Shown: piece after piece, positions 28,133 through 31,130 of the stretch
Layout of the letters: each line of letters starts with the position of its first letter
How positions within the stretch are numbered: the first letter of the stretch is position 1
Assembly (NCBI RefSeq): GCF_001308015.1
Contig: NZ_LGYH01000007.1
Coordinates: forward strand, 1 to 64,000
Length of the DNA: 64,000 nucleotides
Reading direction: 5' to 3'
DNA from: Neisseria sp. 83E34
GTDB lineage: Bacteria; Pseudomonadota; Gammaproteobacteria; Burkholderiales; Neisseriaceae
The notes under the pieces: model-generated
What the model saw: the letters and a program-made list of their open reading frames with translations, nothing else
Databases searched by the model: none
Told to the model about the DNA's origin: nothing
Program-made: the position numbers and the translations under genes

Positions 28133-30979
28133 TTATTCCTCATACGCGCTCATCGGCGGGCAAGAGCAGACCAAGTTTCGGTCGCCGTACACATCGTCCA
28201 CGCGGTTAACGCTCGGCCAGAATTTGTTTTCGCGAACATAGGGCAGCGGGAACACGGCTTCTTCGCGGGTGTAGGGGTGCGTCCATTCGCCGTCGGTTAC
28301 GTTGGCGGCGGTGTGCGGGGCGTTCACCAGCGGGTTGTCGTCTTTCGGCCATACGCCGTTTTGCACTTTCAACACTTCCTGTTTGATGGATTTCAGTGCG
28401 GCGATGAAGCGGTCGAGCTCGGCTTTGCTTTCGCTTTCGGTCGGCTCGATCATCAGCGTGCCGGCAACGGGGAACGACACGGTGGGGGCGTGGAAGCCGT
28501 AGTCCATCAGGCGTTTGGCGATGTCGGTTTCGGTGATGCCGCTTTCGGCTTTGAGCGGGCGCAAGTCAACGATACATTCGTGCGCGACGCGGCCGTTTTT
28601 GCCGGTGTAGAGAATCGGGTAATCCGCGCTCAATTCTTTGGCCACATAGTTGGCGTTCAGCAATGCCCATTGGGTGGCTTGCTCCATGCCGGTTTTGCCC
28701 ATCATGGTGATGTACATCCAAGTAATCGGCAGGATGCTGGCGGAGCCGTAAGGCGCGGCGGATACGGCGCTCATGCCGTCGGTTGCGCCTTCAACGGGCG
28801 ATACGGTGTGGCTCGGGGCGAACGGGGCGAGATGCGCTTTCAAACCGATGGGGCCCATGCCGGGGCCGCCGCCGCCGTGCGGGATGCAGAAGGTTTTGTG
28901 CAGGTTCATGTGCAGCACGTCCGCGCCCACTTCGGCGGGCTGCATGATGCCGATTTGGGCGTTCATGTTTGCGCCGTCCATATACACTTGGCCGCCGTGG
29001 TCGTGGATGATTTTGCAGATGTCGCGGATGCCTTCTTCGTACACGCCGTGGGTGGACGGATAGGTAATCATCAGCGCGCCTAAGTTTTGTTGATGTTCGG
29101 CGGCTTTGGCTTTCAGGTCTTCGATATCGACGTTGCCCTGCTCGTCGGTTTTCACCACCACCACTTTCATGCCCAACATTTGCGCGGTGGCGGGGTTGGT
29201 GCCGTGTGCGGATTGGGGAATCAGGCACACGTCGCGGTTAGGCTGGCCGTTGGCTTCGTGATAGCGGCGGATAGACAGCAAGCCGGTGTATTCGCCTTGC
29301 GCGCCGGAGTTCGGCTGGATGGAAATCGCGTCAAATCCGGTGATGGCTTTGAGCTGATCTTGCAAATCGGTGAGCATCTGCATATAGCCCGCCACTTGGT
29401 CGCGCGGGGCGAAGGGGTGGATGCTGCTGAACTCGGGCCAAGTAATCGGCAGCATTTCGCTGGTGGCGTTCAACTTCATGGTGCAGCTGCCGAGCGAAAT
29501 CATGCTGCGGTTCATCGCCAAGTCGCGCTCTTCCAGCTTTTTCAGATAGCGCAGCATTTCGTGTTCGGTGTGGTAGCTGTTGAACACGGGGTGCTGCAAG
29601 ATGGCATCTTTTCTCAAGAGGCCGTCTGAAAGTTTGCTCGAGGCTTTTTCAGACAGGCATTGTGCTTTTCCGGTGAAGAGTTCCACCAACTTGGCAAAAT
29701 CGGCGGCGGACGTTTCTTCGTGGAACGCCACGGCCAACACATTGTCATTCACTTGGCGCAGGTTGTAGCCCGCATTTAAGGCGGCCTGATAAATCTCTTT
29801 GGCTTTCGCGCCGCAATCTACGGCCACGGTGTCGAAGAACACTTCATGCACCACTTTGAGGCCGTCTGAAGCCACCGCGTCGGCAAACGCAGCCGCCAGC
29901 GCGTGAATGCGGTTGGCAATGCGTTTCACACCTTCGGGGCCGTGGTAAACGGCATACATGCCCGCCAAGTTGGCCAGCAGAGCCTGCGCGGTACAGATGT
30001 TGGAAGTCGCCTTTTCGCGGCGGATGTGCTGCTCGCGGGTTGATAAAGCCATGCGCAGCGCGGGTTTGCCCGAAGCGTCTTTCGATACGCCGATAATGCG
30101 GCCGGGCGACGAGCGTTTGAATTCGTCTTTAAACGCAAAATAAGCCGCATGCGGGCCGCCGAAGCCCATCGGCACGCCGAAACGCTGGGTGTTGCCCAAA
30201 GCAATGTCCGCGCCCAAAGAAGCAGGCGATTTCAGCAGCACCAAGCTCATCACGTCGGCCGCCACCGCTACAATCACGCCTTTTTCTTTCAGACGGCCTA
30301 TCACGGCTTCCAAATCGCGCACATCGCCGTCTTTGCCGACATATTGGAACAGCGCACCGAAGAAATCGCCTTCGGAGGCCGTCTGAAAATCGCCCACCAC
30401 CAACTCAAAGCCGAAATATTTGGCGCGGGTTTTCATCACGTCGAGCGTTTGCGGATACACGCGCTCGTCCACAAAAAATTGATTCGATTTAGACTTACCC
30501 ACGCGCTTGGCCATCGCCATCGCCTCGGCCGCCGCCGTCGCCTCGTCCAACAACGACGCGCCCGCCACTTCAAAGCCGGTGAGGTCGATACACATTTGCT
30601 GGAAGTTCAGCAAAGCCTGCAAACGGCCTTGCGCCACTTCCGACTGATAAGGCGTATAAGCCGTGTACCAGCCCGGGTTTTCCAGCACGTTGCGCAAAAT
30701 CACATTCGGCAGGCGGGTCGGATAATAGCCCAAGCCGATATAGCTTTTGTTTACCTTGTTTTTCGCCGCCACATCTTTGAGCTTCGCCAACGCGTCGGCT
30801 TCGCTCAAAGCCTCGGGCAGATTGAGTTCAGACGGCATACGGATGCTTTGCGGCACGGTATTGTCGATAAAACCGGCCATGCTGCTTTCGCCGAGCGCTT
30901 CCAGCAAAGCCGCTTCGTCTTTAAAGCTGATGTGGCGTGATGCAAATTCGTTTCGGTTGAACAAGTCGTTGAAGTTCAT
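28133..30979 (-). CDS. gcvP: glycine dehydrogenase (aminomethyl-transferring), P protein
   Basis: A PLP enzyme that decarboxylates glycine and loads the aminomethyl group onto the H protein of the glycine cleavage system. At 948 aa it has the normal length of the one-chain P protein. The PLP-lysine motif [16 protein letters not shown] and the N-terminal Y-I-G-L-G-Y-Y are present. The start at 30979 has AGGA 7 nt upstream; an earlier in-frame start would add 18 unrelated residues. gcvT and gcvH are not adjacent. The gene is G+C-rich and holds four exact AG-DUS (29619, 29859, 30288, 30376) and one AT-DUS (30827), against a single local-dialect DUS (29648). Confidence 0.96.
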
Positions 30980-31105
30980 GATTTTTCCTTTGTATTCAAA
31001 GCAAGGCGGCCAAACCGGCGCAGAGCCGCCCAAACGCAGGCTATTTTAAACGGTTTTACAAGGCTAATGGGGTTTTCTTTCAATAAAGATAAAACCAACA
31101 CAAAA

Positions 31106-31130
31106 GCCGCCTGAAATATGTTCAGACGGC
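31106..31130 (-). terminator. foreign-dialect DUS hairpin after the LysE-family gene
   Basis: On the minus strand GCCGTCTGAA (31130-31121) pairs with TTCAGGCGGC (31115-31106) with one G-U pair, then runs into TTTT. It lies 21 nt after the exporter stop. The core is the 10-mer GCCGTCTGAA of the standard Neisseria dialects, not the local DUS. Confidence 0.72.

Follow-up and report, generated by a model that had tools for sequence, protein, structure and literature searches.

A gcvP allele shared with AG-DUS species and carrying uptake sequences of both dialects in the wad-dialect Neisseria sp. 83E34

The gcvP gene of Neisseria sp. 83E34, which encodes a single-chain glycine dehydrogenase of 948 aa, lies in the first 64,000 nucleotides of contig NZ_LGYH01000007.1, the stretch of DNA that was analysed and that is called the window below. 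A preliminary description of this DNA had reported a cluster of DUS of a foreign dialect in and beside gcvP, and an exact-match scan of the window recovered every site concerned (four AG-DUS, one AT-DUS, one wad-DUS and one GCCGTCTGAA core) at the positions given there. The features under discussion are the following:

28133 to 30979, minus strand: gcvP (TIGR00461, 1442.6 bits), read as an exchanged allele from its tree conflict
28130 to 30993, no strand assigned: block of 96.3% identity with the AG-DUS genome G044 (L002), whose ends coincide with those of the gene
29619 to 29630, plus strand: AG-DUS, gcvP offset 1349, in the inter-domain linker
29648 to 29659, minus strand: wad-DUS, gcvP offset 1320, apparently a derived state, also in the AG genomes G044 and G058 and in G047
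29859 to 29870, plus strand: AG-DUS, gcvP offset 1109
30288 to 30299, minus strand: AG-DUS, gcvP offset 680; G046 has a wad-DUS at the same place
30376 to 30387, plus strand: AG-DUS, gcvP offset 592
30827 to 30838, minus strand: AT-DUS, gcvP offset 141, exact in 11 of 30 genomes
31121 to 31130, minus strand: GCCGTCTGAA core, outside gcvP, in the separate block
31005 to 32532, no strand assigned: separate block with a LysE-type gene and the 31121 core, about 97–100% identical to the wad genome G023 and missing here in G057
13961 to 17785, plus strand: FAD/iron-sulfur dehydrogenase-like gene (weak GlcD/LdhH-type matches, all below cut-off), the second exchanged gene
14968 to 14979, minus strand: AG-DUS within the 13961 gene
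15568 to 15579, minus strand: AT-DUS within the 13961 gene
11819 to 13492, minus strand: ettA (NF008775), the third exchanged gene, with no DUS inside

The DUS sites were typed with 12-mers that we take to be the forms of the respective dialects. The AG-DUS, AT-DUS and eik forms are also in print in the literature passages considered, and the wadDUS is described in words in a passage of PMC3630211. The window holds 56 exact wad-DUS, and its only other canonical cores are the two sites inside the 13961 gene. In the whole contig (159,012 bases, with 14 canonical cores and 157 wad sites), six of the 14 cores fall inside 1512 bp, a concentration that none of 20,000 uniform placements equalled; the span was the choice of the preliminary description, which makes the placement test post hoc. 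When the synonymous codons of gcvP were shuffled (2,000 draws), canonical cores numbered 0.11 on average and 2 at most, as compared to the five observed. The cluster of canonical cores is thus far from chance. The 29619/29648 pair was ruled out as a transcription terminator, as it sits within the gcvP reading frame. The window also contains one exact simDUS, at 37723 on the plus strand, absent from the preliminary description.

The strain itself (G000; 2.42 Mb, 40 contigs) belongs to the wad dialect: TGCCTGTCTGAA is its dominant DUS, with 2,119 wad-DUS against 263 AG-DUS, and the genome has 373 canonical cores. Together with G057, G023, G045 and G046, it makes up the five wad genomes of the comparison. 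G057, apparently N. wadsworthii 9715, is its closest relative among the genomes examined (about 93–96% identity in most matching stretches at 1.8–40 kb, 86% in part of a repeat-protein region). AG-DUS number 235–327 in four of the wad genomes and 23 in G046. Conversely, wad sites number 0–7 in 34 of the 46 genus genomes and 27–78 in seven AG genomes (G019, G025, G028, G029, G044, G058 and G062); G044, for instance, has 2,886 AG-DUS and 34 wad-DUS. The presence of wad sites in AG genomes and of AG sites in wad genomes points to traffic both ways. G025, G028 and G029, with 63, 78 and 52 wad-DUS, stand above the four AG genomes that were analysed (G019, G044, G058 and G062).

As a control we used petB-petC (window 2010–4159), which was searched in the 46 genus genomes and gave a tree of 33 rows; the control tree rests on this one gene pair, along with short neighbours. 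It placed the five wad genomes in one set, apart from the AG genomes (support of 99 in the quick analysis and 91/100 in the careful one, not starred). The petBC identity to the window was 94.1% for G057, 87.7% for G023 and 80.9% for G046, and 79.3, 79.0 and 77.3% for the AG genomes G044, G058 and G062. Outside the exchanged genes, segments of 19.5 and 20 kb from the window matched G044, G058, G062 and G019 at 65–76% and 68–85%, respectively, glnA being the highest in the second; this comparison counts matches under an E-value limit, so that weaker genes are missing from it.

By contrast with petBC, gcvP was as close to AG genomes as to wad genomes: 96.3% (G044), 95.5% (G058) and 95.4% (G062) on the one side, and 96.5% (G057), 94.8% (G023) and 81.0% (G046) on the other. 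The rise in identity is sharp and bounded at the gene, the next matching stretches to G044 standing at 81.2 and 78.6%; the affected unit is therefore not 29619–31130, as first proposed, but the gcvP gene, at 28130–30993. The gcvP trees, with 31 rows, intermix wad and AG genomes. A single clade of wad genomes could be rejected both with the full-length gene (p 7e-73) and with either half taken separately (p 8e-9 and 1e-4). For gcvP, a clade of G000, G057 and G023 was also rejected (p 0.003), and a clade of G044, G058 and G062 was not (p 0.144). The order within the allele group is weakly supported (the six-row set has 61/99 in the careful analysis) and is left open by the first-half tree. The gene occupies the same chromosomal place in both kinds of genome: lpxH and an MFS gene lie upstream of gcvP in the window and likewise in G044 and G058, where their counterparts are 74–81% identical. 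No MFS match was found near gcvP in G062, and the G061 stretch is too short to show one. In the lpxH/MFS tree, G000, G057 and G023 group firmly, while the deeper branches are weak and the placement of G046 is unsure. The gcvP gene of G019 is a mosaic, its 3′ half grouping with G062 and G058 and its 5′ half with G028/G029/G038.

The preliminary description had called for a gcvP tree set against a reference tree, and with petBC in the latter role, rather than the core genome, gcvP does conflict with the control and group with AG-DUS genomes. Its core claim, a homologous import across a dialect boundary, thus holds, with changes in the details. It had also named two observations that would together speak for ancestral sites: the same DUS in close wad relatives, which we found in G057 and G023, and a gcvP tree that matches the species tree, against which stands the conflict with petBC.

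Two further genes of the window show the same pattern. The 13961 gene is 90.7–93.3% identical to those of the four AG genomes G044, G058, G062 and G019, and ettA 92.2–93.2%. For the 13961 gene, both a single wad clade (p 6e-8) and a clade of G000, G057 and G023 (p 4e-75) were rejected; for ettA, with 10 rows only, the former was rejected at p 3e-5 and the latter weakly, at p 0.035. The 13961 tree pairs G023 with G062 and places G000/G057 with G044/G019, both with a support of 100, an arrangement that would most simply require two transfers. The earlier description of the window outside the cluster as wad in dialect is correct for its DUS sites, but ettA and the 13961 gene have been exchanged as well.

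The distribution of exact sites across 30 genomes bears on the history of the DUS within gcvP: the AT site at offset 141 was found in 11 of them, the AG sites at 592, 680, 1109 and 1349 in 10, 10, 16 and 8, respectively, and the wad site at 1320 in 6. From these counts, offsets 141, 592, 680 and 1109 are old DUS positions whose dialect varies. All six site states are identical in G000, G057, G023 and G044. G058 lacks the AT site alone, G062 is without the wad site and shows a mucDUS at 592, G047 has the AG site at 592 and the wad site but no others of the six, and the AG sites are all missing from the wad genome G046. Since the six sites are common to the wad relatives G057 and G023, this is not a recent import private to the strain. 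Located in the variable linker, the wad site is three substitutions away from the G062 state; relative to G062 and G061 it appears derived, and it looks newly gained. The 29619/29648 pair had been regarded as an ancestral pair with one arm converted, a view that does not fit G061, G062 and G050, in which the AG site at 1349 is present and the wad site absent. Nor does the AT site at 30827 count as evidence of import, as its 11 exact occurrences include the AG-poor wad genome G046. Because the AG genomes G044 and G058 carry the wad site as well, the traffic in gcvP appears to have been two-way.

The 31121 core, which had been counted with the import, is not part of it. It lies just past the stop of the LysE-type gene (31151–31801), in a block that is mostly 99–100% identical to G023 per 100 bp from 31005 to about 32500 and for which no match was found in G057 over 31005–32532. 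G023 is 82–92% identical to the window in most other long matches, and the near-identity therefore indicates a recent exchange between wad species: wad–wad exchange occurs too. A stretch at about 34900–35500 is likewise near-identical to G023 (98–100% per 100 bp, as for 31005–32500, with 97% at one end). Beside the LysE-type gene, in the block absent from G057, an ORF at 31768–32304 matched prephenate dehydratase weakly (22.3 bits against a cut-off of 219).

It is well supported, then, that gcvP is an allele shared with AG-DUS species that carries DUS of both kinds: the gene comes from an allele common to species of the other dialect and bears both signals, which means that the supposed dialect barrier has been crossed, probably in both directions. 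The block has the size of a gene, its tree conflicts with the control, its DUS sites are common to both kinds of genome, and the 13961 gene and ettA repeat the pattern. We consider it quite probable that the gcvP allele was acquired by homologous exchange, from a lineage in common with the AG-DUS species, with the following history and mechanism. The allele would have entered the wadsworthii group, out of an AG-DUS background, ahead of the split between this strain and N. wadsworthii 9715; it would then have gained the wad-DUS in the variable linker of the protein, inside a wad genome, and have been passed on, such that some AG species now carry the wad-bearing form. This order (AG to wad, gain of the wad-DUS, return to some AG species) is the best reading of the sequences rather than a demonstration, and the direction of transfer is inferred from few characters. 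The AG genome G062, without the wad site, is read as the older state; a local replacement could also account for it. The likely mechanism would be competence uptake followed by homologous recombination, and an allele with DUS of both dialects should be open to uptake by either kind of recipient, and thus act as a shuttle.

The same dialects were described by Frye et al. (2013, PMC3630211), including the wadDUS in N. wadsworthii 9715, and in the parts of that paper considered they are barriers whose distribution tracks the core-genome tree; in the present case, core genes pass between wad and AG in genomes of both kinds. Already in those parts, a single N. subflava strain is noted to have mucDUS around folP, and section 14 mentions unpublished support for wad-DUS uptake via the cell's own ComP in N. 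wadsworthii. As in the work of Hughes-Games et al. (2020, PMC7371117) on ancillary DUS on islands and ICEs, DUS of a foreign dialect point to the dialect of the donor. The islands covered in the sections of PMC7371117 considered, among them the gonococcal genetic island with its AG-DUS, are mobile and without home DUS, whereas gcvP is a homologously replaced core gene with DUS of both dialects; a host DUS at the ICE attachment site is suggested there to widen host range. The mosaic core genes penA and mtr, as presented in those sections, also result from homologous replacement by a diverged allele, but from exchange inside compatible dialect groups, while gcvP crosses dialects. No report of wad/AG exchange or of dual-dialect tandems was found among the listed titles and abstract openings of the open-licence literature on Neisseria DUS and gcvP.

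The rival that keeps the most weight, although we judge it unlikely, is that the genes arrived by DUS-independent routes (phage, conjugation or DUS-independent uptake), the foreign DUS being passengers. That ettA was exchanged without an internal DUS speaks for such routes, and ICEs bring foreign-dialect DNA into Neisseriaceae in the account given in parts of PMC7371117. However, each of the three blocks replaces the allele of one housekeeping gene, no mobile-element, integration or conjugation gene was noticed on inspection of the listed ORFs of 100 aa or longer between 26 and 34 kb, and the frequent dual-dialect tandems and near-absent same-dialect tandems described below are left unexplained. 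Somewhat less probable still is a one-way passage from wad to AG, with the wadsworthii group as the native home of an allele that has relic AG sites and was imported by AG species. It would account for the wad site in G044, G058 and G047, and for the G019 mosaic, whose 5′ part is like G028; against it, the AG sites at 680, 1109 and 1349 are common to the AG genome G061, the wad genome G046 has none, and the 13961 tree, with G023 beside the AG genome G062 and G000/G057 with G044/G019, fits imports into wad lineages.

Ancestral retention, i.e. descent of the wad lineage from AT/AG-DUS ancestors whose old DUS gcvP kept through a switch of dialect elsewhere in the genome, with no transfer, is very improbable: offsets 141, 592, 680 and 1109 are indeed DUS positions in other Neisseria too, the close wad relatives G057 and G023 have the same sites, and wadDUS is derived from AT-DUS in the account that parts of PMC3630211 give, but gcvP is 95–96% identical to AG genomes where petBC is 77–79% for the same pairs, its tree rejects a wad clade, and the wad genome G046 is without any of the AG sites. 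That slow evolution of gcvP, ettA and the 13961 gene merely mimics sharing is scarcely credible: all three are housekeeping-type genes, but other pairs show identities near that of petBC (G028–G061: 79.9% for gcvP, 83.3% for ettA and 82.2% for the 13961 gene against 79.7% for petBC; G000–G046: 81.0, 85.4 and 80.8% against 80.9%), so that the three genes are no slower than petBC.

The wad sites of four AG genomes were surveyed, all 129 of them (34 in G044, 31 in G058, 37 in G062 and 27 in G019, equal to the whole-genome counts); eight stretches were initially chosen for their clustered wad sites and the remainder was then added. The sites were sorted in a fixed order of classes: tandem, wad–wad inverted, inverted against canonical, one-mismatch and single. 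Twenty-three of the 129 had a like-oriented canonical DUS no more than 40 nt away, with a gap of 0–8 nt in 16 of the 23; the others comprised 28 in wad–wad inverted pairs, 17 inverted against a canonical DUS, 1 by a one-mismatch canonical DUS and 60 single sites. In the control, drawn from the same DNA and not from whole genomes, 2 of 356 canonical sites (one pair) had a canonical partner in the same orientation. The tandem excess is significant (Fisher p 2e-12, or 3e-8 on the 14 distinct loci to which the 23 cases reduce), with the reservation that sites are not independent. In G044, G062 and G019, head-to-tail AG/wad tandems whose two sites are 0–8 nt apart occur at:

L208: positions 8122, 8508, 10367 and 11580
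L212: positions 6569, 11859 and 16542
L215: positions 3351, 8641 and 10673
L214: position 4753

In G000, no mixed tandem with a gap of at most 8 nt was found in about 315 of 2,419 kb (103 of the 373 canonical cores), and one had a gap of 18. At the end of narG (TIGR01580), the G000 sequence (L114; 8618) is 93–94% identical to G044 (L222) and G062 (L252) in a match that spans a canonical DUS, a wad-DUS and a hairpin, across the dialect boundary. There the canonical site of G000 is one base off AG-DUS and the second wad arm is altered in G044 and G062, as if each host let the foreign word decay. We tentatively suggest, at less than even confidence, that such dual-dialect, or 'bilingual', loci are bridges, where DNA that has lived in both hosts would gather both DUS next to each other and pass both ways, with the remainder of each genome kept separate, gcvP and the narG end being examples.

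DUS dialects are cited as barriers that separate lineages of the Neisseriaceae, and here core genes have crossed the strong difference between TG-wad and AG, an event whose trace the DUS themselves retain. Should dual-dialect sites promote such crossing, the genes able to move between otherwise isolated species could be predicted from them, and both gene flow and its direction would be readable from sequence. We do not claim that every wad site of an AG genome is a plain reverse import, the site classes being mixed and 60 of the 129 sites single. The same repeated sequence follows some of the wad sites (L208:3933, L212:11871, L215:8653 and L215:10689), and a repeat family may carry part of them.

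In G000, gcvP is one of several foreign-dialect patches, canonical cores being clustered among the first 100 of the 373 listed. A variable region of 19.9 kb (L117, C1:428000–447900) contains 13 canonical cores and is free of wad sites. Patchy matches connect it with AG genomes (pieces of G058, G019 and G044, for the most part at 68–92%) and with wad genomes (G057 mostly at 86–95%, G023 at 87–88%), and its recent history is therefore mixed.

Several minor observations were made in passing. Between offsets of about 1270 and 1600, in the linker region, the G019 gcvP (L188) contains about 220 extra AT-rich bases, in frame, which adjoin the mosaic. The GcvP proteins of Moraxella atlantae, M. macacae and an uncultured Moraxellaceae (L016, L018 and L021) are 70–73% identical to the GcvP of this Neisseria in the best segment, a likeness that may reflect an older transfer between families. 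In the AG genome G058 (C1:1411–1418 kb), a run of eight wad-DUS with three wad–wad hairpins (L210:6380–13206), in a stretch (3.9–13.6 kb of L210) with one AG-DUS alone, looks like a reverse import; its genes, as judged by eye, include an IclR-type regulator, a transporter and dehydrogenases. Finally, three small contigs of G000 (C9–C11; L120, L121 and L122) have 10–12 canonical DUS per 6–9 kb, with some wad sites and a repeat-like spacing, and one of them also matches L256 of G062.
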